A stretch of 64,000 bases of DNA, from NCBI RefSeq assembly GCF_030389965.1, contig NZ_CP128399.1, positions 806,001-870,000 on the forward strand, read 5' to 3'. This document shows, one piece after another, positions 1,957 to 23,631 of this stretch. The translations under genes were made by a program, and so were the position numbers. The stretch comes from Candidatus Chlorohelix allophototropha. Its GTDB lineage: Bacteria > Chloroflexota > Chloroflexia > Chloroheliales > Chloroheliaceae. The notes beneath the pieces are model-generated. The model searched no databases, was not told the DNA's origin, and worked only from the letters and a program-made list of their open reading frames with translations. The first letter of the stretch is position 1. Each line of letters starts with the position of its first letter.

Positions 1957-1968
1957 CTAGAGGTAACG

Positions 1969-4807: not shown

Positions 4808-4825
4808 CCTTCTATACATTTTTTT

Positions 4826-4850: not shown

Positions 4851-4894
4851 GTTACCGGATGCACTTTATTTTTGAACAGGAGGCTATACGATAA

Positions 4895-5350: not shown

Positions 5351-5356
5351 TTGGCA

Positions 5357-5390: not shown

Positions 5391-5425
5391 TACCTTCTGT
5401 CTATCTTTTTCGATAGGAGATATGC

Positions 5426-5861: not shown

Positions 5862-5994
5862 ATATATCGCTTACTACTTTCACTGGAGCGCGGATGAAAT
5901 CATGGCTTTGGAGCATGCAGAGCGTCGTCGTTGGGTTGAGCAAATTAGCTGGATTAATGATAGGCTCAACGGTCCGGTTGAGCATTCTATATAA
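5821..5994 (+). CDS. DUF6760-like small eCIS protein, reachable by -1 frameshift
   Basis: In the frame -1 to the chaperone-like gene, codons 5821-5991 encode 57 residues before the TAA at 5992. They include YPSEQLYEEVAYIAYYFHW, then SADEIMALEHAERRRWVEQI, the compact pattern of the DUF6760 family found beside tube genes in eCIS loci. Its function is unknown. From the preceding in-frame stop (5803-5805) up to an internal ATG at 5902 there is no ATG, GTG, TTG or CTG. The ATG at 5902 would discard the first half of the motif. Translation most likely enters by frameshifting at 5815-5821. The stop is followed 8 bases later by the AAGGAAG ribosome site of the next gene. Confidence 0.65.
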   Translation: MVCYPSEQLYEEVAYIAYYFHWSADEIMALEHAERRRWVEQISWINDRLNGPVEHSI

Positions 5995-6011
5995 AGTAGG
6001 GCAAAGGAAGT

Positions 6012-6503: not shown

Positions 6504-6506
6504 ATT

Positions 6507-9500
6507 ATGGCAGAAAATGAAGAGTTAAAACCGAATATTACTGCCGGACAGGATGCAAACAAGAACATCAAGCCTGTTAGTTCTCCTGCCTTTGCTTCTA
6601 ACGCCTCATTTTCGATTGCGCGACGCTTCGGCTATTATGATGCCTTATCCTCGCGCTGGTTAAATATCCCCCCCACTGCTCGTATGGGAAATTCTATCGT
6701 AGCGCGTTATAGCGTTTTTCCGCTTCCGTTTGATGCGCTTGGACGTGGTTTGCTGAGTGTGCGGCAGCGAAAAACTGCACCTCTCGCGCAAGTGCAACGC
6801 AACGTGAGCAATTTATCACCAGCTAAACCTACTTCTTACAATCTAGCGGAGGCTCAGCCGGAATATGAGTTTGAAGAGTTCGGCTATGAGAATGTTCAAT
6901 CGGATTTTGACGATACAATAATAGCTAGTGATCCAGAGCCGAGGCAAAATTCAATCAGTTCAGCTTCATCCATTGCCCGTATCCGGGAATTTCAAACACC
7001 GGTACAGCGCAGCCTTGAAGGTTTGGCGCGTAGCCGTGACTGGCGCGGTATGGCAGGGCAAGATGCGTCTGAACTTGAGGGAGCGGTATTCAACTCATCC
7101 GATTCATACTACCTGGATATGGTTCAGGCTTCACGTTCCGGTACACCAGTGCAAGAGGAATCTTTCGTCAGCCCTTCTACTTCATTTAGTGATTCAGGCT
7201 TTAGAACAAGCAGTTTGCCAATACAGCCTATTTTGGTTAGCTCTGCCACTTCTTCACTGCAAAGGTTCGTTGCGCCCGAAACATCGGTTTCTTCTACAGA
7301 ATCGCGCCCAACCGAAGTACCCTCGCCTGCTACTCCAATTCAGAAGCCGACCCATACGGAAAATGAATCGTTATCAGGCTACTCTGAGCCTTTGCCTACC
7401 TCACCGAATCAAGAATCAGGTAGTAGCACTCCAATTATAGCTAGCGGTGAAACGGCTGTTCCTTCCATTCAGGTTGCTCAAGGTGTTTCTGAAATAACCC
7501 AAACCTCTGCGCTTCAAAATATAGTTTCCAGCCCTTCCGAGACGGGCGGTCAATTGAACTCGCGTGTAAGTTCTGAGTCGCTTGCAAGGGCTTATACAAA
7601 TGAGGAACGACCGAGCTATTCCTCGGAATCTACCTTAGCGCCTATGGTCTTTCCGCGAGCGCGCCGGGTTAATCCTGCCACTCACCAGAATTCTTTATCC
7701 AGCCCAAAAGTAATGCGCCAGCTTTCTGAACTGGCTGCCAGCCGTGAGTGGGGCAATACACTGGAATTCGGTGAAGCGCAAGGAATTCCCCCAATTATTG
7801 AGGGTGGCGCTTATACTCCGCCCGAAATGGTACAACGCAATGCTTCTTCTCCTACACAAACGACTCAGGCAGACTCTACGGCAGCCACATCTATTAATCG
7901 CAGCCTTGCCTCCGGTTCGGATTCTAACATTACTAGCGCAACTAACCGACTTACCACTAATCCAGTAACAAGTACCGAATATTCGCAAAATCCTATCTTA
8001 CAAACTAATCTGGGTATTTCATCAAGTCTTGATTCTAAACAAGAGAGTGCCACTACTTCAGCCTTTCAACCGCAACCTAGTCAAATCTCCCGCTCAATAG
8101 AAAACAATAATTTAACCCAGAACGATAATGCTGTTAGTAGAGTAAGTGCCAGTATTTCAAGCCAATTACCAGAAAACTTTCCTGAAGCGAAAGAACTAGA
8201 AGCTATAAAGGAAGTGGCGCAAGAACCTGAAACGACTACCGCCACTTTGACTACAGCATTGCAGGGACAAAGCGCAATAGCCCGCGCAATTCAGAGAGCG
8301 GAAGAGGTTGTTGCAGATGAAGAAAATGATGTTGATAGGTCATATCCCCAATCGGTATCGACAATCGAATCTCCACCGATGGTCTTTCGCAGCCTAGCTA
8401 CGGGAAATCCGCTCACTGTCACAAGCAATGAAAATGGAGAAAGTATTGCGCCTGAAAACCGATTAACGACAAAGGCGCAATCTAATATTTCCGATAACCG
8501 CGCTCCTGCATTGAATGAATTTGAAGAGAGCAATGCCTATGCTCAATCGCCCTCTACCTTGCCTGTTGGAGCGCAGGCTATTAGGCGATTCACCGAAGAG
8601 CGTGCCAATATAGCCGCTTGGGCTGAAAACCTACCGCAAACTATTAATGCCGGATTTGAAACTCCTTCACAGTCTGTAGCTGAAACCTACGGCGCTTCTC
8701 CATCTATAAACCGCGTGTTTGCCGCGCAGGATAAAACTGGGAACGTTATTGACGAAAATGCTACTGCTGTGACTTCAATGAAAAATAATCCTTCTGAAGT
8801 GGCACACACTGTTATGCCAGTGCAAGGTTTAATGTCTTCAACAAACTCGATTCAACGTATTGCTGACCTTGCATCTAACCGCGAGTGGGGAAATGCGTTT
8901 GATTTTGAAGGCTTTAATATTGCCGACTCTCGCCAATCAACCAAATCGCCGGATATGGTTTATCCTACTATTACGCCGAACTTGGCAACTTCCTCTGTTC
9001 AACGTACCGTTGCTGCGACTGTTGCTCCTTCTTCAAACATAGTTGGCAACCCTTTAGTCGCTTCAACTCTTAGGGAATCTGGCATATCGCCAATAGGTAG
9101 TTCAACTACCCCTGCGACTTATCCAACGCCTTCTGGTCAACATTTTGAATCAATTGCGCCAGATCAGGGATTCTTCGGCACTTCCATTTCACGCGCAATT
9201 GAGCGTGCCAAGCAACCAAACCAAGATACTGTTGTAGAGAAAAGCACCTCTGATTTAACTTTCACTACTCCAACTTTCCAACCGATTAGAGAATCTGGAA
9301 TACCTCACACGGTTGGTTCAACTATCCCTGTGACTACCCACACGCCCCCTGGTGTATCCGCTATATCAGGATTGGAATTTTCCCAGACTTCAATTTCGCG
9401 TGCAATGGAACGCACTGCTCAGGCAGACGAATGGGTTGCTGCTACTATAGGCACACCTGATTTAAATTTTAGCATACCACCTCTGATAATGCGTAAAGTG

Positions 9501-10427
9501 GGCGATTTTACACCCACTAGGCAAGACTTTACTACTAACGATAGACCAGATTTTGCAGAATCGGTGCAAGCTTATACCCCCGGTGCATTACCGATAGCCT
9601 TGTCATTTGAAGTGGCTTCTTCCGCCAATGCAAGTTCCTCAATAATGCGCAGCCTACCTGAGACTGATTCCAGCTATGATATAGGGCAGGTTTATCTTAC
9701 TGATATAGCGAGTACTAAAGACATACCGCAACAAACGCTGTTTGAGAACAGGTCTAGAGCGGACGTGCCTTCTTCTACCAATATGTCCCATCTATCCAGT
9801 GTTCAGCCACCAACCTCTCAGACAAGCACTTCTGTTGGTGAAGGACGAAAGGTTCAACCAGAATCGTTGCAGATTGGGAGTGGTTTTACTAATGGTTCAG
9901 GTTTATTCCGTTCAACTTTACTTCCGGCTTCCTCGTCAATAGATAACACCTCTCAGCCTGCCGGAATAGAGCGAATGATAATGCGCCACTTGAATGTGGC
10001 TGCCACTTCAACCGAGTCGGCTTCCGCTGAGGAAGATGTACTAAACTATCCTGCTCGCAATGTTGTTGATCAACACGCTGATATTGAACGTACCGTATTG
10101 CGTCATATCTCGCTCGCTAATGCCTCACAAGCTAGCGGTACACACAGCGAATGGGCTTACCCTTCTAGTGAGCCGGTACATCTGCGTCCAGAACCCGTTA
10201 TGCGCGGTGCTGAAACAGCGGTGGTTTCCTCTGGTATCCAGAGGTTTACGGATGGAATCTCTTCTGAAAGTAACTTCAGCCAGAATTCATCTCAGTTAAG
10301 TGGAAATTCACAGCCACAAGCGGAAGTGGATATTGAAAAAATTACGACAGAAGTGTATCGCAAATTGAAACGCGACATGCAAATTGAACGCGAACGCTTG
10401 GGTTTGAGAAGCGGTTTAATGAGATAG
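6507..10427 (+). CDS. 1306-residue Ser/Thr-rich repeat protein of the eCIS locus
   Basis: I recognise no catalytic domain. The N-terminus (about residues 30-80) looks folded and ends in YSVFPLPFDALGRGLLSVRQ. A very long Ser/Thr/Pro/Gln-rich low-complexity stretch follows, and the protein closes in a charged helix (DIEKITTEVYRKLKRDMQIE, then RERLGL). Family knowledge from memory: variable proteins with a similar closing helix sit just before the LysM gene in related eCIS loci. The disordered part holds roughly 20 spaced copies of a short [SV]-[IVL]-x-R motif, e.g. SIARIREF, SLQRFV, SINRSL, SISRAIERA, SISRAMERT, GIERMIMRH, DIERTVLRH. A longer form, LA-S-RxW, occurs three times (near nt 7020, 7735 and 8870). 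There is no strong ribosome site, so it is probably coupled to the previous gene. The role is unknown; an assembly scaffold or lumen protein is possible. Confidence 0.7.
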   Translation: MAENEELKPNITAGQDANKNIKPVSSPAFASNASFSIARRFGYYDALSSRWLNIPPTARMGNSIVARYSVFPLPFDALGRGLLSVRQRKTAPLAQVQRNVSNLSPAKPTSYNLAEAQPEYEFEEFGYENVQSDFDDTIIASDPEPRQNSISSASSIARIREFQTPVQRSLEGLARSRDWRGMAGQDASELEGAVFNSSDSYYLDMVQASRSGTPVQEESFVSPSTSFSDSGFRTSSLPIQPILVSSATSSLQRFVAPETSVSSTESRPTEVPSPATPIQKPTHTENESLSGYSEPLPTSPNQESGSSTPIIASGETAVPSIQVAQGVSEITQTSALQNIVSSPSETGGQLNSRVSSESLARAYTNEERPSYSSESTLAPMVFPRARRVNPATHQNSLSSPKVMRQLSELAASREWGNTLEFGEAQGIPPIIEGGAYTPPEMVQRNASSPTQTTQADSTAATSINRSLASGSDSNITSATNRLTTNPVTSTEYSQNPILQTNLGISSSLDSKQESATTSAFQPQPSQISRSIENNNLTQNDNAVSRVSASISSQLPENFPEAKELEAIKEVAQEPETTTATLTTALQGQSAIARAIQRAEEVVADEENDVDRSYPQSVSTIESPPMVFRSLATGNPLTVTSNENGESIAPENRLTTKAQSNISDNRAPALNEFEESNAYAQSPSTLPVGAQAIRRFTEERANIAAWAENLPQTINAGFETPSQSVAETYGASPSINRVFAAQDKTGNVIDENATAVTSMKNNPSEVAHTVMPVQGLMSSTNSIQRIADLASNREWGNAFDFEGFNIADSRQSTKSPDMVYPTITPNLATSSVQRTVAATVAPSSNIVGNPLVASTLRESGISPIGSSTTPATYPTPSGQHFESIAPDQGFFGTSISRAIERAKQPNQDTVVEKSTSDLTFTTPTFQPIRESGIPHTVGSTIPVTTHTPPGVSAISGLEFSQTSISRAMERTAQADEWVAATIGTPDLNFSIPPLIMRKVGDFTPTRQDFTTNDRPDFAESVQAYTPGALPIALSFEVASSANASSSIMRSLPETDSSYDIGQVYLTDIASTKDIPQQTLFENRSRADVPSSTNMSHLSSVQPPTSQTSTSVGEGRKVQPESLQIGSGFTNGSGLFRSTLLPASSSIDNTSQPAGIERMIMRHLNVAATSTESASAEEDVLNYPARNVVDQHADIERTVLRHISLANASQASGTHSEWAYPSSEPVHLRPEPVMRGAETAVVSSGIQRFTDGISSESNFSQNSSQLSGNSQPQAEVDIEKITTEVYRKLKRDMQIERERLGLRSGLMR

Positions 10428-10449
10428 AGCAGTAAACGGGGAAAATAGT

Positions 10450-11136
10450 ATGTCACAGAATAATATCACCGGGGGTTTACCCAAAGATAAAAAAGCAGTT
10501 ATTGTCATTAAGAAAAAGAGCGTACCTGAAAAGCGTCTGACATGCCACTTCAACCCGACCGATTATACTATTTCGCGCGATGTAACTTGGCAATTTAAAT
10601 CAGTACTTGGCAAAGATGTGCCGGTAGCTGATTTTCAAGGGGGCGGCTCTAACAAATTAACCTTAAAACTGCTTTTCGATACCACTATGGAAGCGGGCGC
10701 ACCTAAAGATGTACGTACTGACACCAAACACCTATGGGATGCCGCTTATATAGATACAGGCAGCAAGGATGCCGTAACCAATAAGGGCGAACCGCCTCAT
10801 ATCCTATTCATTTGGGGTACCACCTGGTCGTTTGAAGCAATTATTACCAATATCAGCCAAGAATTCACCCTTTTCAGCGATAGTGGAATACCCTTGCGTT
10901 CCAATGTAACCTTGAGCATGACGCAAGTGGTAGATGACCGTAACTTTGGACGGCAAAACCCTACCAGTGGGGGTATTCAGGGCAAAATCCATGTAGTGCG
11001 CGAAGGCGACCGCCTTGATTTGATTGCCAACCAGTATTACAGCAAACCGATGAAATGGCGTGATATTGCGGATTATAACAATATTGATAATCCTCGCTTA
11101 ATAAAGCCGGGTATGCGTCTGGTAATACCTGAATAA
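10450..11136 (+). CDS. LysM-containing tube-baseplate adaptor (Pvc7-like)
   Basis: This 228-residue protein has an N-terminal beta-rich adaptor domain (CHFNPTDYTISRDVTWQFKS, then GGGSNKLTLKLLFDTTME) and a C-terminal LysM module (about residues 180-227: VVREGDRLDLIANQYY, then NIDNPRLIKPGMRLVIP). Family knowledge: proteins of this layout (T4 gp53-like, Pvc7/Afp7) connect the tube initiator and spike to the baseplate wedges. In this setting LysM is a structural element rather than a cell-wall hydrolase part. The gene sits directly before the spike gene, as expected. Confidence 0.87.
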   Translation: MSQNNITGGLPKDKKAVIVIKKKSVPEKRLTCHFNPTDYTISRDVTWQFKSVLGKDVPVADFQGGGSNKLTLKLLFDTTMEAGAPKDVRTDTKHLWDAAYIDTGSKDAVTNKGEPPHILFIWGTTWSFEAIITNISQEFTLFSDSGIPLRSNVTLSMTQVVDDRNFGRQNPTSGGIQGKIHVVREGDRLDLIANQYYSKPMKWRDIADYNNIDNPRLIKPGMRLVIPE

Positions 11137-11164
11137 GCTCTTAGAATCAAGTGAGGTTAAGGTA

Positions 11165-12940
11165 GTGACAACTGAGCAGAAATTAAATAATCAAAAAACC
11201 ATTGCTTCTTGTCATATAAAAATCGGTGGTAGCCCGGTTAGCTCCGAGATTATGGATTCTATAATGTCGATTGAAGTGAACCAGACCTTGTATCTTCCGT
11301 CTATGTTCACGATTAGGCTGCATAACGATAACTTAGCGTGGACTGACAACGCAAAGTTCAAGATAGGCAATGATGTTGTGATTTCGATGGGTTATGGCAC
11401 TGCTACTGAAGTTATGAGTGGGGAAATAACTGCAATTGAACTAGAATCTTCAATTTCCAGCTTACCCGTTCTGACGATACAGGGCTATGATAAACTACAC
11501 CGCATGCAGCGAGGACGCTTCACTCGCACTTTTAATAACTCTAAGGATAGCGACCTTGTATCTAGGCTTGCTTCCGAAAAGGGTTTATCTGCTTCAGCTT
11601 CCGATACCAGCATCGTTCACCCCTATATTCTTCAAAATAATGAATCCAACTTGGAATTTTTGCAAAGACGCGCCAAACGGATTGGGATGGAGCTATTTTT
11701 TCAAGATGGCAAGCTAAATATGCGTAAGCATGTACAGGGAAGCAAGGTAGCTACCTTATCCTATGGTGAGGATTTACTTACTTTAAATGCCAGAATTAGC
11801 TATGTAGATAATGTTACTGAGGTTCTGGTGCGGGGTTGGGATGTAAAGAAGAAAGAAGCCATTGTAGGTAAATCCACATCAGCTACAGGTTATTCTTCAC
11901 TCACTTCCAACAATGAGTCTTCGGCAAAAAAGGCTTTTGGCACAACTAAGACCGCTGCTGTTTTCAGCCCGGTTATGAGTCAGAGTGAAGCCGATAAGGT
12001 GGCAGAGGCTATCTTTGAGGAGCTTTCAGGCAGGATTATGCAGGTGGATGGGAGCGTTTTAGGTAATCCTACACTTCTACCAGGAAAATGTATTGAACTC
12101 GCCAAGATTAGTACCACCTTTAGCGGGACTTATTATTTAACCTCTTGTATCCATCGCTATGGAATTGAGGGCTATATCACCGAATTTGCAGCAAGTGGCA
12201 AACAAGCTAACACCTTTGCCGAGCAAGTTGGTGGTGGCGAGAACCATTGGGAATTATCACGCGGGGTTGTAATCGGGATCGTGACGAATCTAAATGACCC
12301 GGATAACTTGGGTCGCGTAAAGATAAAATTCCCGTGGTTACCACAGGCTGACGGTCAGGATATAGAAAGTAATTGGGCAAGAGTAGCAATGCCAATGGCA
12401 GGCAATAATAGGGGCTTCTTCTTTATGCCCGAAGTAAATGATGAGGTTCTGGTAGCTTTTGAGCAGGGCGATTTACAGCATCCCTATATTATCGGCGCAC
12501 TCTGGAACGGTAAGGATGCACCACCAGAACTAAGCCAAGCGCTTTCTAGTGGCGTGGTAAAGCAACGACTGATTAAATCCAAAAGCGGACATATTATCAC
12601 GCTAGACGAAAGCGATGATAAGCCTAAAATCAGCATTGTGGACAAAACCGGTAGCAATAAGATTATTATCGACTCGCAAAACAACACTATCACTATAGAG
12701 TCGAAAGATAAAATCAGCATAACTTCTACTACCAAAGACATAGAACTTAAGGCTGCCGCCGGGAAAGTGACCTTGGATGCAAAAGAGATTGAAATCAAAA
12801 GTAGCACTAATACGAAAATATCCGCTACTGCCAAGATGGAAGTACAAGGTTTGAATCTGGAAATGAAAGCTTCTGCCTCCGCCAAGATAGATGGCGGCGG
12901 TATGACTGAAATCAAGGGCGGATTAATCAAGCTAAATTAG
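11165..12940 (+). CDS. VgrG-like spike protein (gp27/gp5-like, Pvc8)
   Basis: This 591-residue protein has three recognisable parts. The gp27-like hub spans about residues 1-345. A gp5 OB-fold follows (about 365-450, with GIVTNLNDPDNLGRVKIKFP and DEVLVAFEQGDLQHPYIIGA). A C-terminal strand-rich stretch ends it (alternating SITSTTKDIELKAAAGKVTL, KEIEIKSS, KMEVQG), typical of the trimeric spike helix. It forms the puncturing spike at the tube tip. Translation starts at GTG 11165 after GAGGTTAAGG. No extension beyond the spike helix is present, so it carries no fused effector. Confidence 0.93.
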   Translation: MTTEQKLNNQKTIASCHIKIGGSPVSSEIMDSIMSIEVNQTLYLPSMFTIRLHNDNLAWTDNAKFKIGNDVVISMGYGTATEVMSGEITAIELESSISSLPVLTIQGYDKLHRMQRGRFTRTFNNSKDSDLVSRLASEKGLSASASDTSIVHPYILQNNESNLEFLQRRAKRIGMELFFQDGKLNMRKHVQGSKVATLSYGEDLLTLNARISYVDNVTEVLVRGWDVKKKEAIVGKSTSATGYSSLTSNNESSAKKAFGTTKTAAVFSPVMSQSEADKVAEAIFEELSGRIMQVDGSVLGNPTLLPGKCIELAKISTTFSGTYYLTSCIHRYGIEGYITEFAASGKQANTFAEQVGGGENHWELSRGVVIGIVTNLNDPDNLGRVKIKFPWLPQADGQDIESNWARVAMPMAGNNRGFFFMPEVNDEVLVAFEQGDLQHPYIIGALWNGKDAPPELSQALSSGVVKQRLIKSKSGHIITLDESDDKPKISIVDKTGSNKIIIDSQNNTITIESKDKISITSTTKDIELKAAAGKVTLDAKEIEIKSSTNTKISATAKMEVQGLNLEMKASASAKIDGGGMTEIKGGLIKLN

Positions 12941-12953
12941 GAGGTAAAAATAG

Positions 12954-13358
12954 ATGCCACCAGCCGCAACTATGGGAGATAAAGCTAATGGACTATGCAC
13001 CCATATTATTATGGTTCCAGCTCCTCCCGCTCCACCAGTACCGACACCAATTCCGCACCCGTTCGTTGGTACTATAATGGGCGGGTGCAGCACCAATGTC
13101 CTTATAGGGGGCAAGCCTGCTGCGATTATGGGCGCAACTGTACAAAATCTCCCGCCACATGTGCCGCTAGGTCCGGGTCCTTTTGGTCCGCCGCCACCGA
13201 CCAATTCTGGCACAGTGATTAAGGGTAGCGCAACTGTGTTGATAAATAATAAACCGGCGGTGCGTGCCGGGGATACTTCAACTATTTGTGCCACCAGCGC
13301 AGTTCCCGGCACTGCAGTAATTGTCGGCACTGCTATGACTGTTCAAATCGGAGGCTGA
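12954..13358 (+). CDS. PAAR-domain spike tip protein
   Basis: This 134-residue protein is rich in Gly, Pro and small residues. It opens with the PAAR signature (MPPAATMGDKANG) and has further PAAR-like strands (GGKPAAIMGATVQNLPPH, VLINNKPAVRAGDTSTIC). Family knowledge: PAAR proteins cap the VgrG spike with a sharp metal-stabilised tip; His and Cys residues here could supply ligands. A proline-rich segment (about residues 22-37) is inserted in an early loop. It starts 13 bases after the spike gene. No effector domain is fused. Confidence 0.9.
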   Translation: MPPAATMGDKANGLCTHIIMVPAPPAPPVPTPIPHPFVGTIMGGCSTNVLIGGKPAAIMGATVQNLPPHVPLGPGPFGPPPPTNSGTVIKGSATVLINNKPAVRAGDTSTICATSAVPGTAVIVGTAMTVQIGG

Positions 13359-13359
13359 C

Positions 13360-13791
13360 TTGGATAGAGACGGTCTTACTGAACTAGGATTTATCGGCTC
13401 GGGCTGGACTTTCATTCCCGATAAAGGTACAGGCGTGAATGGCGATGGCGGGATTTCTCTATCCAGCGGAGACCGCGACATTGCCAAATCAATCTTTCTG
13501 ATTTTAAGTACCGCGCCGGGTGAAAGGGTAATGCGTCCTGAGTTCGGTTGCGGCATTCACGATTTGGTGTTTGCCTCACCCGGTCCGCAAGTTTTCGGAC
13601 TCATTTCTTACTATGTTACTCAGGCGTTAGGGCGTTGGGAGCCACGTATTGACGTTGAGAATGTTGATACAACGGTGGATGAGCGCAACCCTGAACGGCT
13701 TATCATCAATATATTTTATACTGTTCGCCAGACCAATAATGAACGCAATCTGGTTTATCCGTTCTATGTTATACCGCGAGGAGAGGAATAA
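13360..13791 (+). CDS. baseplate wedge protein, gp25-like
   Basis: This 143-residue protein has the gp25/W family core: SSGDRDIAKSIFLILSTAPG, then ERVMRPEFGCGIHDLVF and WEPRIDVENVD. gp25-like proteins nucleate sheath assembly at the baseplate and contain a lysozyme-like fold without activity. The start is TTG at 13360, one base after the PAAR stop codon and behind a CGGAGG ribosome site. The coupling implies equal dosage with the tip protein. Confidence 0.9.
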   Translation: MDRDGLTELGFIGSGWTFIPDKGTGVNGDGGISLSSGDRDIAKSIFLILSTAPGERVMRPEFGCGIHDLVFASPGPQVFGLISYYVTQALGRWEPRIDVENVDTTVDERNPERLIINIFYTVRQTNNERNLVYPFYVIPRGEE

Positions 13792-13797
13792 GAAAGA

Positions 13798-15852
13798 ATG
13801 TCTCTGCCGCAAATAAAACTGGACGAACGCACTTTCCAAGATTTAGTGGATGAGGCAAAATTGCGTATACCGCGCTATTGCCCAGAATGGACTAACCATA
13901 ATGTAAGCGACCCCGGCGTAACGCTGATTGAGCTTTTCGCTTATATGGTTGACCAGTTGTTATATCAGATTAATCGTGTGCCGGAAAAAAATTACCGCTC
14001 TTTTCTGGATATGATCGGCGTGAAATTAGCCCCGCCCAATCCGGCGCGAACTGAGGTTACTTTCCGACTTTCCGCGCCCCAACCCGGTGCGGTTATTATT
14101 CCAAAATATACCGAAGTATCGACAGTACGCACCGAAACCAATGAAGCGCGGATTTTTACCACCGAGAAAGATTTGCAGATTGTTCCGCCTTCTTTGAAAT
14201 ATGTGTTGACCACCGCCAATTCGCAAACTTTTTCAGACCGCAGCAAAATGACTCTAGATAAGTTACCCAATCCGGTGGCAGTGTTTCAAGATGAGCCGCA
14301 ACCCGGTAATGCTTTTTACTTGGGTTTTAGCCAGAATATCTCCAGCAATACGCTGGTGGTAGGGTTGGATTGTGAAAAAATCGGGGTGGGCATTAACCCT
14401 GATGATGCTCCTCTAATTTGGGAATACTGGGACGAGCGCGAGGGTGATTGGCGTTCGCTGGAATTGATGCGCGATACCACTGGCGGTTTAACCGTGCCAT
14501 TTGCAGAGGTTGAGTTGGCAATACCCTCTACCGCCGGACAACATGAGATTGAATTGGTCAGCGGTTCGGGCGACCCGTTGATCGCATGGTGGCTGCGCTG
14601 CCGTTATCGCGAACTTAGCAAAGGACAACCGGATTATAATAAATCCCCGGTGATACGCAAATTCAGCGCGTATACAATCGGTGGCACAGTCCCGGTCATG
14701 CATTGCCAGATAATCCGCATGGAAGAATTGGGACGCTCTAGCGGAGAATCTGGGCAGCGTTTCCGCCTGCGCAATACTCCGGTATTGGCATTGAATCATG
14801 CCGAGAATGAAACCATAATGATTGAGTATCTGGATGAACGCGCCCCGGAAATCTGGAAGCATGTGCCGGATTTCTCAGAGTCGGATGCCAAATCCAAAAA
14901 TTTTACCTGTGACCCGGTGACGGGGGAAGTAGCTTTTGGTCCTGCTATTCGCAATCCGCGGGGCGAAATCGAGCAGCGCGGCGCAATTCCGCCCTTCGAT
15001 ACACGAATTAATATGATAGCCTACCGCAACGGGGGTGGAATAGAGGGTAATGTTGGCAGCCAAACCCTGACTGTTCTGAAAAGCTCGATTGCCTATGTAG
15101 ATAGCGTAAATAATCGTCGCCCTGCTACGGGAGGAACTAGCGCTGAATCTTTGGAGCATGCTTTACAGCGCGGACCTCGCACCCTACGCGCCCGCAATCG
15201 GGCAGTTACCGCAGAAGATTTCGAGGTTCTGACGCGAGAAGCTACCAGCGGGGTAGCGCGGGTACGCTGCCTTACTCCCAGTTCAAACGGCAATGGCAAT
15301 GGTAACGGCAACGGAGAGTATGAGCGGATTGACCCCGGAACGGTGATATTGCTGGTTGTACCGGAAATTGACCCAGAATTACGTGAATTGCGCCCGGAAC
15401 ATTTAAACATCCCCAATTTTATGCGTACCGATATTCTGGATTATTTGGATGAGCGACGCTTGATTACTACTCAGGTTCAATTGGCTATACCTAAATATCA
15501 GTGGGTTACGGTTCAAACTAGAATCAAATCTACCAACTCGTTTGCCAATGAGCGCATCAAACGTGAAGCGGAACGTCGTTTATATCGCTTTATTCGTCCT
15601 GTTCATGGAGGACCTGACCCTTCGATGCGCTACGAGACACCAGGTGAAGGCTGGCCCTTTGGGCGGATACTCTATTTATCCGAAATCTTTCCCATACTAC
15701 AAACCATTGATGGAGTTGAATTTGTAGAACGCATACAACTTTTCCCGGTGACAGATATTTCGCGTGGGCAAGCCGGGAATCCGGTAAATGAAATAAATCC
15801 CGGTGCGCGGGGGTTATTATGTTCGTACCGTCATCAGATTGTATTTATTTAA
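13798..15852 (+). CDS. baseplate wedge protein J/gp47-like
   Basis: This 684-residue baseplate J family protein begins with a typical eCIS gp6-like N-terminus (LDERTFQDLVDEAKLRIPRY, then CPEWTNHNVSDPGVTLIELF). It contains the J core (RALRARNRAVTAEDFE-like segment THE RTLRARNRAVTAEDFEVLTR at about residues 460-480) and the end FGRILYLSEIFPILQTIDGV. Family knowledge: this is the main wedge component linking hub to sheath. A Gly-Asn dipeptide run (about nt 15289-15318) forms a flexible linker after the J core. The gene lies six bases after gp25, the standard order. Confidence 0.92.
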   Translation: MSLPQIKLDERTFQDLVDEAKLRIPRYCPEWTNHNVSDPGVTLIELFAYMVDQLLYQINRVPEKNYRSFLDMIGVKLAPPNPARTEVTFRLSAPQPGAVIIPKYTEVSTVRTETNEARIFTTEKDLQIVPPSLKYVLTTANSQTFSDRSKMTLDKLPNPVAVFQDEPQPGNAFYLGFSQNISSNTLVVGLDCEKIGVGINPDDAPLIWEYWDEREGDWRSLELMRDTTGGLTVPFAEVELAIPSTAGQHEIELVSGSGDPLIAWWLRCRYRELSKGQPDYNKSPVIRKFSAYTIGGTVPVMHCQIIRMEELGRSSGESGQRFRLRNTPVLALNHAENETIMIEYLDERAPEIWKHVPDFSESDAKSKNFTCDPVTGEVAFGPAIRNPRGEIEQRGAIPPFDTRINMIAYRNGGGIEGNVGSQTLTVLKSSIAYVDSVNNRRPATGGTSAESLEHALQRGPRTLRARNRAVTAEDFEVLTREATSGVARVRCLTPSSNGNGNGNGNGEYERIDPGTVILLVVPEIDPELRELRPEHLNIPNFMRTDILDYLDERRLITTQVQLAIPKYQWVTVQTRIKSTNSFANERIKREAERRLYRFIRPVHGGPDPSMRYETPGEGWPFGRILYLSEIFPILQTIDGVEFVERIQLFPVTDISRGQAGNPVNEINPGARGLLCSYRHQIVFI

Positions 15853-16320
15853 ATGGATACGACTATGCCTAAACCTTCACTCTTTGCCATAGCGCTCGAA
15901 TTTTTCAATAGCCTAGACTGGCATTATGAGATTGCCGGAGATGGTACTGCCTTGAAAGTGAATTTTGAAGGGGAGAATGGCGAATGGCAGTGCTATGCTG
16001 ACATCAAGGAAGACGAAGAACAGTTTGTCTTTTACTCGGTTTGCCCGGAAACAACCCTGCGCGAACATCGCTCGGTTATGGCAGAGTTTCTGACACGCGC
16101 AAACTACGGGATAATTATCGGCAATTTCGAGATGGATTTCGAGGATGGGCAAATCAGTTATAAAACCAGTATAGATGTCGAAGGTGCGAGCCTCACAACC
16201 GCGCTATTGCAACGTTTGGTTGAATCGAATCTTGACATGATGGATTTGTTCTTACCGGGCATCAGAGCAATTAATCAAGGGAAAATGACCCCTGCCGAAG
16301 CTTTAGCAAAGATTGGGTAG
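15853..16320 (+). CDS. YbjN-like protein inside the baseplate operon
   Basis: This 155-residue protein resembles the YbjN family: FNSLDWHYEIAGDGTALKVN, FVFYSVCPETTLREHRSVMA, EFLTRANYGIIIGNFEMDFE and DGQISYKTSIDVEG. Family knowledge: YbjN proteins have a fold reminiscent of type III secretion chaperones and lack a known enzyme activity. The ATG abuts the gp47 stop codon (TAAATG), and the tail protein I gene begins 8 bases after its end, so it is a true operon member. I infer a chaperone or adaptor role for a baseplate part or cargo. An alternative start is the ATG at 15865. Confidence 0.75.
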   Translation: MDTTMPKPSLFAIALEFFNSLDWHYEIAGDGTALKVNFEGENGEWQCYADIKEDEEQFVFYSVCPETTLREHRSVMAEFLTRANYGIIIGNFEMDFEDGQISYKTSIDVEGASLTTALLQRLVESNLDMMDLFLPGIRAINQGKMTPAEALAKIG

Positions 16321-16328
16321 AAAGAGAA

Positions 16329-16958
16329 ATGACTACCGCTTTTGAAAAATGGCTGGAGTCCAGCAAAAATTACCAAAGCCCCAATGGGGTGGAGAAACCT
16401 CAACCTAGCGAATTGTTAAAGTATCTGCCGGGTCTTTATGCGCGGGATGAGTTTATGGGGCGTTTCCTCAAGATATTTGAAGATACCCTCAAACCCTTGC
16501 AGCAGATGACGGATAATCTGGCTTACTATTTTCATCCGCTTATGACTTCTCCTGAAATGATGGAATGGCTTGCCAATTGGGTAAATCTTGCGCTAGATGA
16601 AAACTGGTCTTTGGAACAAAGACGTAAGTTAGTTCTTTCAGCCTCAGATTTGTACAGCAGACGCGGCACTAAACGCGGTTTGGCAGAATACCTAACGCTA
16701 TATACCGGCATTGAACCGGATATAGCCGAATATATGGATGGAATGTCGCTTGGACCTGAAACGCTGCTTGGCATAAATACTACGATTGCAGGACGCGAAC
16801 GCTATGGTTTTACCGTTACTCTGCGGATGAACGGAATCAGCCCAGAGGAAATGGCGCAGAAAGAAATAATTATCCGGCGTATTATCGAAGCCGAAAAACC
16901 AGCTCATACTATTTATCGCTTGAGAATTTTAACAGGTCAACAGTCCCAGAAAGCTTGA
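16329..16958 (+). CDS. phage tail protein I-like baseplate protein
   Basis: This 209-residue protein has the family hallmarks: SELLKYLPGLYARDEFMGRF, then LKIFEDTLKPLQQMTDNLAY, MEWLANWVNLALDENWSLEQ and YSRRGTKRGLAEYLTLYTGI. Family knowledge: P2 gpI-like proteins (Pvc12-associated) complete the baseplate wedge with gp25 and J and often anchor fibres. No fibre gene is visible nearby, so receptor binding must be encoded elsewhere or absent. Confidence 0.9.
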   Translation: MTTAFEKWLESSKNYQSPNGVEKPQPSELLKYLPGLYARDEFMGRFLKIFEDTLKPLQQMTDNLAYYFHPLMTSPEMMEWLANWVNLALDENWSLEQRRKLVLSASDLYSRRGTKRGLAEYLTLYTGIEPDIAEYMDGMSLGPETLLGINTTIAGRERYGFTVTLRMNGISPEEMAQKEIIIRRIIEAEKPAHTIYRLRILTGQQSQKA

Positions 16959-16979
16959 TAACTAGCACAGGAGATAGAA

Positions 16980-18170
16980 ATGACCTTCCGACCACAGACA
17001 ACCACAAAATTTCGATTTATACGGGTAAACCCATTCAGAGGTTTACTTATAGATGAAAATACATGGGCTGACGCGCATGATTACCACCGCAATATGATGC
17101 GTTTTCACTTGCTCTCAATGCACGGAGTGGGTATCGTGCAGGGTCTTGAAGTAGTAGCGATGCAACCTGCCGACAATCGCCTTACTGTAAAACCGGGAGT
17201 AGCGATTGATTCGGAAGGTCGCTTGTTGTATCTTTCCGAACCACAACTTATTACAATGCCTCCCGCCGATGCAGTTGCTACTGCTTTTATAGTATTGGAA
17301 TATCAGGAAAAACAGGCGCAAATGCAAGCAGTAACCGATGGCGGCAAGGCACAGCCAACCCGTGTGTTGGAAAGCTGTCAGGTTCGCGCCAGCCTTGAGC
17401 CTGTCCCCGGTTCGATAGAGATTGCGCGTATCAGCTATAATCCGGCAACCAAGCAAGTTCGAAATCCTACGGTAGTTATGCAACCCGGTCCGAACGAAAT
17501 TGATATGACGGCGCGAGTAATGGCAGCCGGAACAGGGGCAGTTGCAAACCCGGTGCGCCAGAATCGTATCAGCCTGACGGTTGGAATAGTACGCTACGGG
17601 CCTCCCGCTAGTTCGGAATGGAAACGCCATTCGGATGGGGTGCGCCGTTTGCTGCGTGATGTAGGCGCGAATACTATCCTTGATGCGAACCTATTGGATG
17701 GCGTTAGCCCAATGGATGAATCTGCCATTCGTAGTTGTCGGGTATTGTATATGACGGGGCGAGTTGGGTTTGGTTTCAGCCCGGAAGAAGAACAATCATT
17801 GAGGCGATTTCTTGATCGCGGCGGTATTTTGTGGTGCGAACCTTGCCGTAACGGCTTACCCAGTGGCGCTCCAGATGATTTCAGCCGCTCTAGTATTGAA
17901 CTGGCACAACGCCTAAATCGACAATTAATCCAGCCGCGCTTTGGTCATCCTCTTTTAAACTCCCGTTTCCTTTTTGCCAGCCCACCTCCTGCGCTTGACC
18001 CTGCCGGAGTGGTAGTCGAAGCCAATCGACTGATAATTACCGGGGGGGATTATGGTTGTCTCTGGGAAGGGCGTGGTCAAGAACGAGCCGAGCCACCCTC
18101 CCGCGAAATCTTGCGCTCTGCCGGAGAGTTTGGCGCAAATGCGCTCTTTATGGCGGTTGAGCAAGGCTAA
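16980..18170 (+). CDS. baseplate-like protein fused to a DUF4159-like domain
   Basis: In this 396-residue protein, residues 1-200 resemble a baseplate-associated beta-rich protein (FRGLLIDENTWADAHDYHRN, then LTVKPGVAIDSEGRLLYLSE). I have seen similar N-termini in eCIS and phage baseplate gene sets. Residues about 215-395 resemble DUF4159: SCRVLYMTGRVGFGFSPEEE, then LRRFLDRGGILWCEPCRNG, a flavodoxin/amidotransferase-like fold of unknown function. The fusion tethers a DUF4159-like module to the particle. The ribosome site AGGAGATAG lies just upstream of the ATG. A small membrane ORF overlaps its 3' end. Domain calls are by eye; the N-terminal assignment is the weaker one. Confidence 0.7.
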   Translation: MTFRPQTTTKFRFIRVNPFRGLLIDENTWADAHDYHRNMMRFHLLSMHGVGIVQGLEVVAMQPADNRLTVKPGVAIDSEGRLLYLSEPQLITMPPADAVATAFIVLEYQEKQAQMQAVTDGGKAQPTRVLESCQVRASLEPVPGSIEIARISYNPATKQVRNPTVVMQPGPNEIDMTARVMAAGTGAVANPVRQNRISLTVGIVRYGPPASSEWKRHSDGVRRLLRDVGANTILDANLLDGVSPMDESAIRSCRVLYMTGRVGFGFSPEEEQSLRRFLDRGGILWCEPCRNGLPSGAPDDFSRSSIELAQRLNRQLIQPRFGHPLLNSRFLFASPPPALDPAGVVVEANRLIITGGDYGCLWEGRGQERAEPPSREILRSAGEFGANALFMAVEQG

Positions 18171-18267
18171 TCATATTGAATATTATGTCCTGTCGGCTAT
18201 AATAGGGCTATTGGGGGCAAGCATTTTGGGGGTATTAGTAAGTTCTATTAACAATGGAACATCCTAG
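18139..18267 (+). CDS. possible 42-residue single-pass membrane protein
   Basis: This short ORF starts at an ATG inside the end of the preceding gene and runs in another frame past its stop codon. Its second half is a clear membrane segment (YYVLSAIIGLLGASILGVLV) that lies mostly outside the overlapped gene, so the hydrophobicity is not a by-product of the other frame. It sits 33 bases before the large membrane-anchored CHAT/TPR gene. No good ribosome site is visible. It could be a small anchor or a chance ORF. Confidence 0.35.
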   Translation: MRSLWRLSKANHIEYYVLSAIIGLLGASILGVLVSSINNGTS

Positions 18268-18300: not shown

Positions 18301-21300
18301 TTGGCAGATGCAGGCAATCTGGATCTTGAATTGCATATAAAACCGGTGGATACCGGCTACCAATCCGAATTGAAGACGGCGGACGGCTCGGCTATACTCA
18401 ATAGTTTTCGCTTGTCCTATGCCCCGCATGAAATAGAAAACCTCATCACCTATTTACGCCAAGCGCAACAATACGGCAATGGCTTACAGAGTCCAGAAAT
18501 GCAGGTTATCCAGCAATTCGGCTGGAGTCTTTTTAATCAGGTATTCAGCAATCAGATGGAAGGTGCGCTGCGTGAAAATTTAATTCAGGCGCGGCGTGAA
18601 GACCACAAAATTCGTCTAAGGCTGGCGCTTGACCCGGAAGATTCTTTACTTAACCAACTTCCGTGGGAATATTTATATTACCCAAGCGCTAATAGCTATT
18701 TGAATCTTGCAGGCAACCTTATTTTTTCACGTTCCACCGGGAACGGGCTTCACTACGAATACGCAAAAATCAGTTTACCGCTGAAAGTGTTGGTTTGCGC
18801 CGATTCCTCTGCCTATTGTGTAGAAATCGAAGAAGCAGTCAAAGAGCAGCATTATCAAGGATTGCTACAAGTCATTTCAGCCCCAGATGTGGCGGCTATT
18901 ACGAATGTCCTTGCGAAAGATGAATTTCATCTAATCTGGTTGAAATGCAACTTTGCAGCTAAGTTATCGGATAGTTCCCAAAGTTTTTCTATCTCCGAAT
19001 CTAGCCGCTGGCTTTCAATTTGTCCGAAATTGCGCATCCTAATTCTTGAAAAAAATACTAATGAACTCACCGAGATGAACACGCTTGGTAATTCGCTGGT
19101 ACATGAAGGATGGGGCGGTTGTGTACTGATACCCTTCGACTTAAATTCAGAAGGGCGTGAAATTGTAGCGCGTGAGCTGTTGAGCGGATTGGCGCAGGGC
19201 TTGGGCTTGGATGAGGCGGTAGCGCGTACTCGTGAACAACTCTTTAATAGCGGGCATGAAGCGGATTGGGGCGATTTGCTGGCTTTCAGCGCACATCCTG
19301 CCGGGAAAATGTTCCAGATTGAAAGCCAGAATCCCGAAGATATGCGCAAACGGCAATTATCTACTCTGTCGCGGGATGCCAAATTATCATTGGATCAGGA
19401 GAAATGGGCGCAGGCGGAGGAATTGCTGGTGCAATTACTGCAACTTGAACCAGACCGCCCGGAACTAAAGAAGTTGCTTGACTATGCCAGACGTAATCAG
19501 GCGTTGGATGAGCAATACCAGTATGCTAAAACTCTGCTACAAGAAGAACGCTGGTTGGATGCTCTGGAAGAATTTCACAAAATTAAAGCGCAGGATTCCC
19601 GCAATCGTTTCAAGGATTTGCAATCTCTAATAGCAGAGGCTGAGTCGAAGGTACAAGATAGTCAGAAAATAGAAGAAGCAAACAGCCTTTATTCTTCCGC
19701 ACAGATGGCGATAATGCTAAAAGATTGGACTCTCGCCATAGAGCGTCTTGAACGGGCGTTGCGCTTGTATCCGGCATTAGAAGAAGCCGAGAACCTTTTA
19801 AAGCAAGTCAGGTTGCAGCAACAATTGCTGGAACTTTATAGCGTAGGGCGCGATTGCTTTGAAGCTGAACGCTGGCATGAAGCGCTGGAACGTCTTTACA
19901 AGCTAAGGGAACTAGATAGCGGGATGCTCTATGGCGATATTCATAAAATGATCGCCGAAGCCGAAGCCAAAGAGTCGCAGGAGCAAAAAAAAGCCCAAAT
20001 AATTGAGCTTGAGGCTGAATCACAACACTATTTTGAGCAACAGCGCTGGAATGAGGGTATTAGCTGTCTTGAACAATTATTGCAATTAAAGCCTGACCAC
20101 CCGAACGCTTCTGAAAAAATCTCTTTTGCCAAAGTTCAGTTAACATTGGCTGATCTCTTTGCAAAGGGCAATACGGCATTAGCTCAAGAACAATGGATGG
20201 AGGCAATAGAGTTCTTTAGCCAGCTACGTTCGCTGGATGGGCTGAGCCAATATCCGCAAGCAGCATTGTTGGTAGCTGAAACTGAGCTAAAGATAGATAA
20301 AGCACAAAAACGCACCCGTACTGCTACTATGCTGGAAGAGGCCCAGGCGGCATTATCGAAAGAAGCTTGGGCAACTGCTATACGCAAACTTGAGGTGGCG
20401 TTAACTCTCGAACCCGCTAACTCCGAAGCCTCGGAAAAACTTGAGTACGCCCGCAATCAGCAAACGCTTAGCGCTCTGTACCAGAAAGGGCGCGAGCACT
20501 ACGAAGCCAAACGCTGGGATGAAGCGCTAGAGTTATTTGGCAAGTTGCAAACGCTTGATAAGTTGGCGCAATACAGCGATGTCGAAACTCTTATTTCAAC
20601 TGCCGCCGCACAGCGCAGCGATTCGCAGCTTGAAGCGATGTACGCAGGGGTACAGATTGCGCTTGAAAAGCAAGAGTGGGCGGCGGCTCATCAAAAGCTC
20701 GAATCAATTTTTGCAATTAATCCCGGCTTCAAAGATACCGCTGAATTGCTGAGCAAAGTTCGCCAAAGAGTAACCGAGAACCTTTCGCAAAATGCCGCCG
20801 CGTTTTTAAGCGAAACTGTAAAGAGCGATAGCGGTGAGTATGGCTATCAAATTGACTTAAAATTGACTACTTCTCTGGCAGGTTATCAACTAGAGATGAC
20901 TACCAGCGAAGGCAATCGGTATCTTGGCAACTTTTCCCTGACCTATAACGCCCAGCAATTGGACAATTTGCTGTGGTATTTGCGGCAGGCGCGTTATATT
21001 GATGCCGGGTTTGATAGCCCTGAAATGCGGGCGGTTCAAAAATTTGGTTGGAATCTCTTTATCGAACTGTTCAACAATGAGATGGAAACTGCCTTACGCA
21101 ATATTCTGGTACAAGGCGAGCGTGAGGGAAAATTTACCACTATAAGGCTGTTGCTCGGTAGCGATTCCACCTTAAATATCTTACCGTGGGAATATTTGTA
21201 CTATCCCTATGCCAACAGTTATTTAGGGCTGGCAGGTGATATTTCGCTGGTTAGGTTGGTAGAAACCGAAAAAGAACCTGTTCCGGCGCAAGTGCGTGGT

Positions 21301-23631
21301 GCTGTGCGGGTTTTGAGTTGGGTAGGAACACCAGAAGGCTATGAAAAAATAGACTCTGAAGAGTATAGGCAAATGCTGGCTGAGTCGGCGGGCGAATACC
21401 GACAACGGGGTTTGGTAAGTCTAGAGAGAGTCAAGGGTGCGACATTTTCGGCATTGCAAAAACAACTTTGGGTGGGCGAATACCATATTTTATGGATTGT
21501 CGCTCCGGTAGAAAGAGGCGAACTGAGAGTTAATGGTGAAGACGGTGAACCAGAAAGCTTGAGTGCCCTAAAGCTCTGGAATCTGCTAAAGGAACATCCC
21601 GGTATCCGCTTAGTAGTTTTTGAAACTTCGGTGGGAGATGGTTCAACCGGAATTAATACTATCGCACAAGCCTTGGTTGAACAAGGATTAGCTGGATGTG
21701 TGGCATTGCCTTTTGAAATTTCTGAAAAGAATCGCGCAGTGTTCTCGCGTGAAATTCTGGGCGGAATAAGTCAGGGCAAAAGCATAAATAGTGTGTTGGC
21801 ACAAGCTCGCTTTGCCATATACGAGAATAAAAATCAAGTCGAATGGGGTACACCCATTTTATACACACAGCGACGCGATGGCATTCTATTCAATATACTT
21901 TCAACCCCCCCTGACGAGCAGCGCGTGAAGCAGCTTGAAGCTCTAGAAAATGAAGCGGACGCTGCTATTGAACGTGAAGAATGGGTTAGAGCAATTGACC
22001 GCCTTCAAAAACTGCTAGAACTTGACCCCTCTAGAGAGGAAGCTGCCCAAAAACTACGCAACCTTGAATTTCAGCAGGAACAAGCTCGGCTTTACGCCGA
22101 AGGGCGCGAATATTTTGACTCTGGTAACTGGGGGGAAGCGCTACGGGTATTTCGCACTTTAAAAGAAAACGATAGCGAAGGGCATTATCTAATAGTCGAG
22201 TGGCTCATAACAGATTCGCAACACAAACTAGAAGAACAGATATATGAAGAACACCTGTCACAGCTTTATACCGATGCCGTCTCAGCTTTTGAAACCGAAG
22301 AGTGGGATGCAGCTGTAAATGGGCTTGAAATAATTGCCAATAAAGAGCCGGAGTATCGCGAGGTAGAACAATTATTGGCGCAAGCTCGTCAGAAGTTAAA
22401 GGAAGCTCAGGAACGAGTTCCGCGACTTTATGAAGAAGCGCGTCAAGCTCTAAAAGAAAAAAACTGGGTGTCGGCGATTCAAAAGCTGGTAGATGTATTG
22501 GCAGCCGAACCGGATCATCCCACTGCACAACAATTGCTGGATAAAGTGCGCTATTACCAAATTTTGGAGGCACTTAAATTTACCCTGAAAATGCATATAG
22601 AATCCAAAAAATGGGATGAGGCTGCAATTACGCTAGAGTTATTGCGCAAACGCGATAAAAAAGGGGAATTTACCGATATTATCAGTAGCGCGAAGGTGGT
22701 CATCACCGAAGTTAGCACTAAGATAAACAATCTTATGGGTGTAGCCAGAGTTGCGATCGAAGAGCAAGAGTGGGATAAAGCTGTTGAAAAATTAACTGCC
22801 GTCCTTGAACTTTCCCCTGAACATCCCGAAGCCAATGTATCTTTACCGCGTGTCCAACTCAGCCAAAGCTTGCAATCGGTGTATCAAGCCGCTCGTGAAC
22901 ATTATGCCACAGCCGCATGGCATGAAGCTTTGGATGGTTTTCGTCAAGTTAAGATGATGGATAGAGGCGGCTTATATACCGATCTCGATTGGTATATTAC
23001 CGATACACAAGCGCGTATGGAGGAGTCCAACCGCCAATCGCAGTTTGTGGCAATGGAACAGGAAGCCCAACTTGCGCTTGACCGAGGTGAATGGGCAATT
23101 GCGCTACAAAAATTGGAAAATCTATTAACTATATTTCCTTACCATCCTGAGACTCAGAATAAGCTGACTTACGTTAAACAGCAATTGGAACTTGAGCAAC
23201 TTTACATAACCGGGAATGATCATTTGCAAGCAGGGCGCTGGCAAGAAGCTTCCGAGACACTGCGTCGATTGCAAGCCTTTGATATGTATGGGCGTTACCC
23301 GCAGGTAGGTGGAATGATTGCTTTTGCCGAGAGTAATTATACCCCTCAGATTCAACCGATTACCAGTAGTTTTCCTTTAGTTAGTGCTGCACCAGCACAA
23401 CCCCGTGATAAGAAAGCTCAAACCTCACAGAAAAACGCTAATGGTAGCCAAGCAACCGAAAAAAATAAAAACAAGGGGACAAAAAGCACTGCAAAAACCG
23501 AGGTCGCTAAAAAACCGCGCATCCCTGATTCTACCGTTTCTTTCAGAGTCAGGCTCTTGTTTTTCTTCTGGGGGCTAATACCGATAGCTTTGCTTGTATT
23601 ACTGATAATAAACTTGTTGCGACGGTCTTGA
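18301..23631 (+). CDS. giant double CHAT-like/TPR protein with C-terminal membrane anchor
   Basis: The 1776-residue protein has two CHAT-like modules (about residues 10-345 and 840-1203), each followed by an array of about 85-residue helical repeats of TPR type (about 350-830 and 1206-1680). A polar linker and one membrane helix (RVRLLFFFWGLIPIALLVLL) ending in LRRS complete it. Both modules keep the CHAT scaffold (PWEYLYYP, GWGGCVLIPF / GLAGCVALPF) but lack the active site. The HG of the His motif is replaced (HLIWLKCN, HILWIVAP), and the catalytic Cys position reads LEKNT or FETSV. It is therefore probably a binding scaffold rather than a protease. The start is TTG 18301 behind TAGGAGTTT. 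Position and orientation make it the last gene of the eCIS operon. Confidence 0.82.
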   Translation: MADAGNLDLELHIKPVDTGYQSELKTADGSAILNSFRLSYAPHEIENLITYLRQAQQYGNGLQSPEMQVIQQFGWSLFNQVFSNQMEGALRENLIQARREDHKIRLRLALDPEDSLLNQLPWEYLYYPSANSYLNLAGNLIFSRSTGNGLHYEYAKISLPLKVLVCADSSAYCVEIEEAVKEQHYQGLLQVISAPDVAAITNVLAKDEFHLIWLKCNFAAKLSDSSQSFSISESSRWLSICPKLRILILEKNTNELTEMNTLGNSLVHEGWGGCVLIPFDLNSEGREIVARELLSGLAQGLGLDEAVARTREQLFNSGHEADWGDLLAFSAHPAGKMFQIESQNPEDMRKRQLSTLSRDAKLSLDQEKWAQAEELLVQLLQLEPDRPELKKLLDYARRNQALDEQYQYAKTLLQEERWLDALEEFHKIKAQDSRNRFKDLQSLIAEAESKVQDSQKIEEANSLYSSAQMAIMLKDWTLAIERLERALRLYPALEEAENLLKQVRLQQQLLELYSVGRDCFEAERWHEALERLYKLRELDSGMLYGDIHKMIAEAEAKESQEQKKAQIIELEAESQHYFEQQRWNEGISCLEQLLQLKPDHPNASEKISFAKVQLTLADLFAKGNTALAQEQWMEAIEFFSQLRSLDGLSQYPQAALLVAETELKIDKAQKRTRTATMLEEAQAALSKEAWATAIRKLEVALTLEPANSEASEKLEYARNQQTLSALYQKGREHYEAKRWDEALELFGKLQTLDKLAQYSDVETLISTAAAQRSDSQLEAMYAGVQIALEKQEWAAAHQKLESIFAINPGFKDTAELLSKVRQRVTENLSQNAAAFLSETVKSDSGEYGYQIDLKLTTSLAGYQLEMTTSEGNRYLGNFSLTYNAQQLDNLLWYLRQARYIDAGFDSPEMRAVQKFGWNLFIELFNNEMETALRNILVQGEREGKFTTIRLLLGSDSTLNILPWEYLYYPYANSYLGLAGDISLVRLVETEKEPVPAQVRGAVRVLSWVGTPEGYEKIDSEEYRQMLAESAGEYRQRGLVSLERVKGATFSALQKQLWVGEYHILWIVAPVERGELRVNGEDGEPESLSALKLWNLLKEHPGIRLVVFETSVGDGSTGINTIAQALVEQGLAGCVALPFEISEKNRAVFSREILGGISQGKSINSVLAQARFAIYENKNQVEWGTPILYTQRRDGILFNILSTPPDEQRVKQLEALENEADAAIEREEWVRAIDRLQKLLELDPSREEAAQKLRNLEFQQEQARLYAEGREYFDSGNWGEALRVFRTLKENDSEGHYLIVEWLITDSQHKLEEQIYEEHLSQLYTDAVSAFETEEWDAAVNGLEIIANKEPEYREVEQLLAQARQKLKEAQERVPRLYEEARQALKEKNWVSAIQKLVDVLAAEPDHPTAQQLLDKVRYYQILEALKFTLKMHIESKKWDEAAITLELLRKRDKKGEFTDIISSAKVVITEVSTKINNLMGVARVAIEEQEWDKAVEKLTAVLELSPEHPEANVSLPRVQLSQSLQSVYQAAREHYATAAWHEALDGFRQVKMMDRGGLYTDLDWYITDTQARMEESNRQSQFVAMEQEAQLALDRGEWAIALQKLENLLTIFPYHPETQNKLTYVKQQLELEQLYITGNDHLQAGRWQEASETLRRLQAFDMYGRYPQVGGMIAFAESNYTPQIQPITSSFPLVSAAPAQPRDKKAQTSQKNANGSQATEKNKNKGTKSTAKTEVAKKPRIPDSTVSFRVRLLFFFWGLIPIALLVLLIINLLRRS

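Follow-up and report, generated by a model that had tools for sequence, protein, structure and literature searches.

A tail-anchored protein with two dead CHAT modules and two TPR arrays, encoded beside a contractile injection system in Candidatus Chlorohelix allophototropha: a probable pseudoprotease scaffold

CHAT-type proteases, such as separase and Craspase, govern cell division and immunity as master switches, and relatives of these proteases that have lost activity frequently act as regulators. In the TPR-CHAT protein of Craspase (Csx29), the catalytic dyad consists of H585 and C627, according to the part of PMC9729208 available. In the conflict systems of multicellular bacteria, caspase domains are described as mostly inactive (available text of PMC7159879), and pseudo-orthocaspases with C-terminal TPRs constitute a precedent for the kind of scaffold discussed below (available text of PMC6426788). 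The literature searched contained no paper joining a contractile injection system (CIS) and a CHAT domain, nor one joining a CHAT domain and a pseudoprotease; on inactive or tandem CHAT domains it yielded one paper, which concerns cyanobacterial retroelements.

The window analysed here is a stretch of 64,000 nucleotides (G000:C1:806001-870000) from the Candidatus Chlorohelix allophototropha genome, which comprises 6.09 Mb in five contigs. It encodes a protein in which a CHAT module and a TPR array are followed by a second CHAT module, a second TPR array and a tail-anchor helix (Table 1). A sequence-only reading of this DNA had proposed a CHAT-like module plus TPR array repeated twice, and the alignments bear this out: the modules align over 384 columns with about 32-33% identity (208 bits, E 5e-68), and the arrays are of near-equal length (~480 residues each) and about 27-29% identical. 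According to Pfam, the protein contains TPRs of several families (TPR_2 with 70.4 bits, cut-off 27). CHAT was recovered when the modules were scanned separately, with module 2 above the curated cut-off of PF12770 and module 1 just short of it, whereas a scan of all 1776 residues returned TPR-type and weak families without CHAT. Neither module matched any entry of NCBIfam or PADLOC, and a tblastn search of 72,556 plasmid records gave four weak matches. Hydropathy exceeds 1.6 solely in segments starting at residues 1746-1758.

Table 1. Features of the tandem CHAT-TPR gene and of its surroundings, in positions of the window
Feature	Position	Strand	Details
eCIS cluster, context of the gene	25..18170	+	AAA, eCIS_core, Pvc16_N, sheath, tubes, CIS_tube/LysM, spike, PAAR, gp25, baseplate J, YbjN-like, tail I, Cis13-like DUF4159
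Promoter-like site	18176..18203	+	TTGAAT-16-TATAAT; begins six bases past the stop codon of the Cis13-like gene; 10/12 consensus matches
Tandem pseudo-CHAT/TPR protein, 1776 aa, predicted C-terminal membrane anchor	18301..23631	+	open frame, TTG start behind AGGAG
CHAT module 1, dead (aa 4-347)	18310..19341	+	PF12770 22.0 bits (below the cut-off of 24); AlphaFold2 mean pLDDT 92.6
Lost His site, module 1 (aa 211-217)	18931..18951	+	LIWLKCN where the family has xxHFxGHG
Lost Cys site, module 1 (aa 249-253)	19045..19059	+	LEKNT where the family has LNACE
TPR array 1 (aa 349-835)	19345..20805	+	Pfam TPR matches; similar to array 2
CHAT module 2, dead (aa 836-1210)	20806..21930	+	PF12770 35.3 bits (above the cut-off of 24); AlphaFold2 mean pLDDT 91.4
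Lost His site, module 2 (aa 1063-1070)	21487..21510	+	ILWIVAPV
Lost Cys site, module 2 (aa 1107-1111)	21619..21633	+	FETSV
TPR array 2 (aa 1208-1690)	21922..23370	+	Pfam TPR matches; similar to array 1
C-terminal hydrophobic helix, putative tail anchor (aa ~1746-1776)	23542..23619	+	hydropathy; match to the G086 C-terminus

From the perspective of structure, both modules are of the CHAT/separase fold, as judged from AlphaFold2 models with a mean pLDDT above 91. The models were built from 73-row alignments that consist mostly of intact relatives, on which they lean. For both modules the best match in the PDB was the TPR-CHAT protein of Craspase (8d9f_A), with Z 19.5, rmsd 3.5 and 284 aligned residues for module 1, and Z 21.1, rmsd 3.4 and 290 aligned residues for module 2; separase was matched with Z 19.2 and 19.4, respectively, and Foldseek E values were as low as 1.8e-9 and 1.1e-9. 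Given these confident models and matches, the possibility that the protein has no CHAT fold at all, raised by the sequence-only reading against its own proposal, fails. Sequence searches of the PDB gave mainly designed TPR proteins when module 2 was used with phmmer, and SAVED-CHAT and DdvA when a profile was used. Both modules also matched eukaryotic proteins of the ciliary central apparatus (7n6g_1N and 9ijj, Z about 14-16.5), which on these models are possible CHAT-fold scaffolds in cilia.

The catalytic dyad is missing from both modules. A 10-row alignment shows other residues in place of the family motifs HxxGHG and [ND]AC, and a deletion at the His loop: GHG of the family corresponds to LKC--N in module 1 and to a gap before P in module 2, and NACEG corresponds to EKNTN and ETSVG, respectively. 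The missing HG and the residues at the Cys position had been read correctly from the sequence. A profile built from this alignment was used to score the open reading frames of 79 loci, the window and six further loci, and yielded 96 module hits, 93 of them distinct. Of the 93, 87 retain His as well as Cys and four lack the two together, namely the two window modules, module 2 of a homologue in genome G086 (described below) and one module from locus L175; the remaining two are fragments without the dyad columns. The L175 module belongs to a dead CHAT gene of a more distant Chloroflexi MAG (L175:9380-10600, HIEAEAG / DASVGS), which is immediately followed by an intact CHAT gene (10730-11794) and thus represents a further live/dead pair, as two separate genes.

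An intact Cys-His pair located elsewhere would have changed this picture. In the DSSP strings of the models, on which the argument about strand ends rests, no alternative pair lies at the active end of the sheet in either module; the retained Cys and strand His are at strand N-termini, which form the other end of the sheet. The nearest retained histidines, 210 in module 1 and 1062 in module 2, precede the strand and correspond to a non-catalytic His of the family; the whole of module 2 contains a single Cys and two His. The reading that the protein remains an enzyme and uses a displaced or atypical nucleophile, such as Ser1110 of module 2, where Thr-Ser occupies the Cys position, is therefore hardly credible, since both modules have lost the His loop by deletion and the nearest His lies at the wrong end of the modelled sheet. 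Neither module has the His-Cys dyad of an active peptidase.

Beyond the dyad, the modules keep 31 and 33 of 60 highly conserved non-catalytic columns, while among 79 intact modules longer than 300 residues the median is 56 and the lowest value 44, so preservation of the fold is not tight. The idea that both copies retain scaffold motifs holds for PWEYLYYP, present at residues 121 and 962, and does not hold as a special retention of the scaffold. Judging by these columns, the CHAT fold of this protein is repurposed or loosened, beyond mere disarming.

Two CHAT modules separated by TPR arrays were seen in only one other protein among 158 genomes of the class, 61 of which contain a match; a further open reading frame, in L171, has two abutting partial hits to the profile. 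The second protein (G086/L100) comes from the MAG 'Candidatus Chloroheliaceae bacterium' L227-5C (JACAUC010000001), of the same family and another genus. It shares with the window protein the two CHAT modules, each with TPRs after it, and a C-terminal membrane helix with the common pattern WGLxP...N (28.9 bits, E 5e-6 between the C-termini). Its module 1 is intact (GHG, DACEA) and has a weak SAVED_CHAT match in PADLOC, and its module 2 is dead (GPA, NINGA), whereas both modules are dead in the window protein. It also differs by an additional membrane segment before the last helix, a YccF-type inner membrane domain (L036:7776-8438, PF03733, 29.8 bits), which was not seen in the whole-protein Pfam scan of the window protein.

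The history of the modules was addressed with a quick tree and then with an AU test on 17 rows. The modules cluster by protein and not by position, and the test rejects one duplication ancestral to both proteins (AU p 3.9e-5 and 7.4e-5), which separates the duplication in G086 from that in the window protein. Gene conversion acting inside each protein might look like separate duplications, and long-branch attraction may account for some of the tree signal, since the branches of the window modules are long. The two window modules have nine residues in common that differ from the family at positions where at least 80% of the intact relatives agree, including a Trp that replaces His three positions beyond the retained His, a Pro in place of Gln and a Leu in place of Tyr; G086 shares one of the nine, a Tyr in place of Asp. 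Because the modules are sisters and share these residues, a single loss before the duplication is the simpler explanation, and the alignment suggests that activity was lost once, before the window protein's own duplication. This weakens the earlier argument that the absence of both residues from both copies points to selection for a binding role, although a binding or scaffold role itself still stands as a sensible reading. In other genomes CHAT genes lie side by side (L102:9881-14385 and L113:3175-9685), and tandem amplification of CHAT genes therefore recurs.

A better argument for function than the loss of the dyad is the open frame. In simulations to comparable divergence (30 runs per level), about 50-74 stops were expected in 1776 codons, and none is observed; by this measure, the frame is kept open by selection. 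No close orthologue was found for a direct selection test. The simulations also bear on the reading that the gene is a former protease gene decaying under relaxed selection on its way to a pseudogene, which would account for the lost dyad, the broad divergence from the family and the long branches. We regard it as quite improbable: 5.3 kb have been kept without stop or frameshift where tens of stops are expected without selection, the duplication probably came later than the loss, the tail anchor is conserved, and codon-position composition is normal (GC.58/.36/.44, resembling the neighbouring genes). Elsewhere in the source genome, a CHAT fragment broken by a TAG codon (G000:C4:154607-154762, L003) represents a CHAT pseudogene near an intact CHAT gene.

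The tandem gene lies on the same strand as an eCIS cluster with sheath, tube, spike, baseplate and cap-type genes, 130 bases after its Cis13-like gene. The sequence-only reading placed it in an eCIS operon, which is accurate with regard to its position. The intergenic promoter-like site may be a promoter of the gene's own; three such sites were found in about 600 bases (0.7 expected), by consensus match only. With regard to gene content, an eCIS is common to all five genomes of the family, and the window sheath is 70-74% identical to its counterparts in the other four, yet the whole genomes of three of these four (G083, G084 and G085) contain no relative of the target modules. The 3' end of the cluster was read in G083, where GlgB and GlgE, encoded on the other strand, come next after the Cis13-like gene; in G084, G085 and G086 it lies off the contig or in unread sequence. 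The G086 tandem gene lies on a separate 87-kb contig, flanked by an AAA gene and a restriction-methylation gene, and the surrounding 36 kb contain no eCIS gene. More broadly, no eCIS-like gene was found at any of 79 CHAT loci (1.21 Mb, 35 loci of at least 20 kb), and the check proposed in the sequence-only reading, for the same architecture at the end of other eCIS loci, found no CHAT gene in any of 18 eCIS stretches, 11 of which extend at least 2 kb beyond the Cis13-like gene. When the contigs with CHAT relatives (61 of 158 class genomes) and with sheath matches (54 of 158) were compared by eye, CHAT and sheath occurred within 25 kb in the window's genome alone among the matches listed, the next case being contig 46 of G035, at about 28 kb. 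The gene is thus not a conserved component of eCIS clusters: it is absent near the eCIS in the readable relatives, so the linkage is seen in one genome only, the proposed functional link finds no backing there, and what ties the gene to the eCIS is its proximity. Two other parts of this cluster vary between genomes. Window 6507-10427 encodes a 1306-residue eCIS protein without Pfam or NCBIfam match, whose positional counterpart in G083 has 1896 residues and no blastp similarity to it, which on this comparison makes it a fast-evolving part of the cluster, and a YbjN-like gene between baseplate J and tail protein I (15853-16320) is absent from that place in G083.

These surveys weigh against an alternative in which the protein would serve the neighbouring CIS as a membrane docking or firing-control factor specific to this lineage, its TPR and pseudo-CHAT surfaces recruiting cytoplasmic CIS particles to the membrane, analogous to Streptomyces CisA and unrelated to it in build. 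The location of a membrane protein gene directly after baseplate and Cis13-like genes is reminiscent of CisA, which is encoded just downstream of baseplate genes and is needed for firing (available text of PMC12237407). This docking or brake role is retained as an alternative because the accessible part of PMC12998442 describes the CIS of Chloroflexota as cytoplasmic and reports that Roseiflexus lacks close cisA homologues. Set against the missing co-occurrence, the separate contig in G086, the end of the G083 cluster and the putative own promoter, it appears unlikely. Somewhat less likely still is the specific version drawn by analogy, that a single lineage recruited the protein as a membrane receptor to its CIS, with dead CHAT folds and TPR superhelices holding the baseplate at the inner membrane or restraining firing, and so filling the role of CisA in Chloroflexota. 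If true, a dismantled death protease would serve as the trigger guard of a self-killing syringe.

The reading that we favour, and consider likely, is that of a tail-anchored, non-catalytic pseudoprotease scaffold that binds partners without cutting them, probably as a membrane-tethered binding platform. Its ancestor would be a TPR-CHAT cysteine protease, from which the catalytic His loop and Cys would have been lost in this lineage, most likely once; the dead CHAT-plus-TPR unit (~840 residues) would then have been duplicated head to tail, and the product tethered by its C-terminal helix, presumably facing the cytoplasm. The docking surfaces would be those of two TPR superhelices and of two CHAT folds that lack a working pocket, and protein partners would be bound and not cut, for example by holding or competing for the substrates or activators of active CHAT proteases encoded elsewhere in the genome. 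Since the same genome encodes two intact CHAT proteins of other subfamilies, a role as a substrate or activator decoy is possible.

For the scaffold we count, besides these two proteins, the CHAT folds that lack both the dyad and a substitute pair while most relatives are intact, the unbroken frame, the membrane helix conserved with G086, and the live and dead modules of G086, which represent an intermediate kind of state in the same layout. Against it count the low retention of conserved positions, the models' dependence on intact relatives, the long branches, the lack of a close orthologue and that of a conserved partner gene near the relatives examined: among eight neighbour proteins of six loci with active relatives, no recurrent partner was found, the neighbours including ferritin, CotH, ATP synthase, a sigma-54 activator and another CHAT protein. 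Together, the G086 protein with one live and one dead module and the window protein with two dead ones would represent the conversion of a protease into a non-enzymatic scaffold, which apparently happened twice in a single family of bacteria, and the pair offers a direct way to test the function of the CHAT fold in the absence of catalysis.

Compared with known systems, the window modules share the CHAT fold with Craspase TPR-CHAT and eukaryotic separase (Z about 17-21), including a TPR partner domain. These proteins keep the dyad in a single module, whereas here it is lost from two, and the TPRs are N-terminal in Craspase TPR-CHAT and follow the modules in the window protein. The transmembrane anti-sigma factor DdvA (8rot, 8rw5; Z 14.6-17.6) is likewise a membrane protein with a CHAT-type domain, but this is a single domain at the C-terminus, and in the profile alignment its HG and ACEGG motifs are still present. 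According to the available text of PMC6426788, the pseudo-orthocaspases of cyanobacteria and alphaproteobacteria resemble the window protein in their caspase fold, lost His-Cys dyad and, in some variants, C-terminal TPRs; they differ in belonging to the p20/C14 family and in having substitutions (YS or FS, for example) instead of a loop deletion, and that text makes no mention of tandem copies. CisA, as far as described in the portion of PMC12237407 available, shares the membrane location and the place of its gene with the window protein and is conserved with its CIS cluster, while the window gene is not. Judged from that description, which reports no CHAT or TPR, CisA has an unstructured cytosolic N-terminus, one transmembrane segment and a periplasmic domain of substrate-binding-like type, whereas the window protein has folded CHAT and TPR regions before its only predicted transmembrane segment and ends right after it. 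No tail-anchored CHAT-TPR protein with two dead modules in tandem was found in the literature searched; dead caspase-fold proteins are already known, and the protein described here would add a new variant to them.
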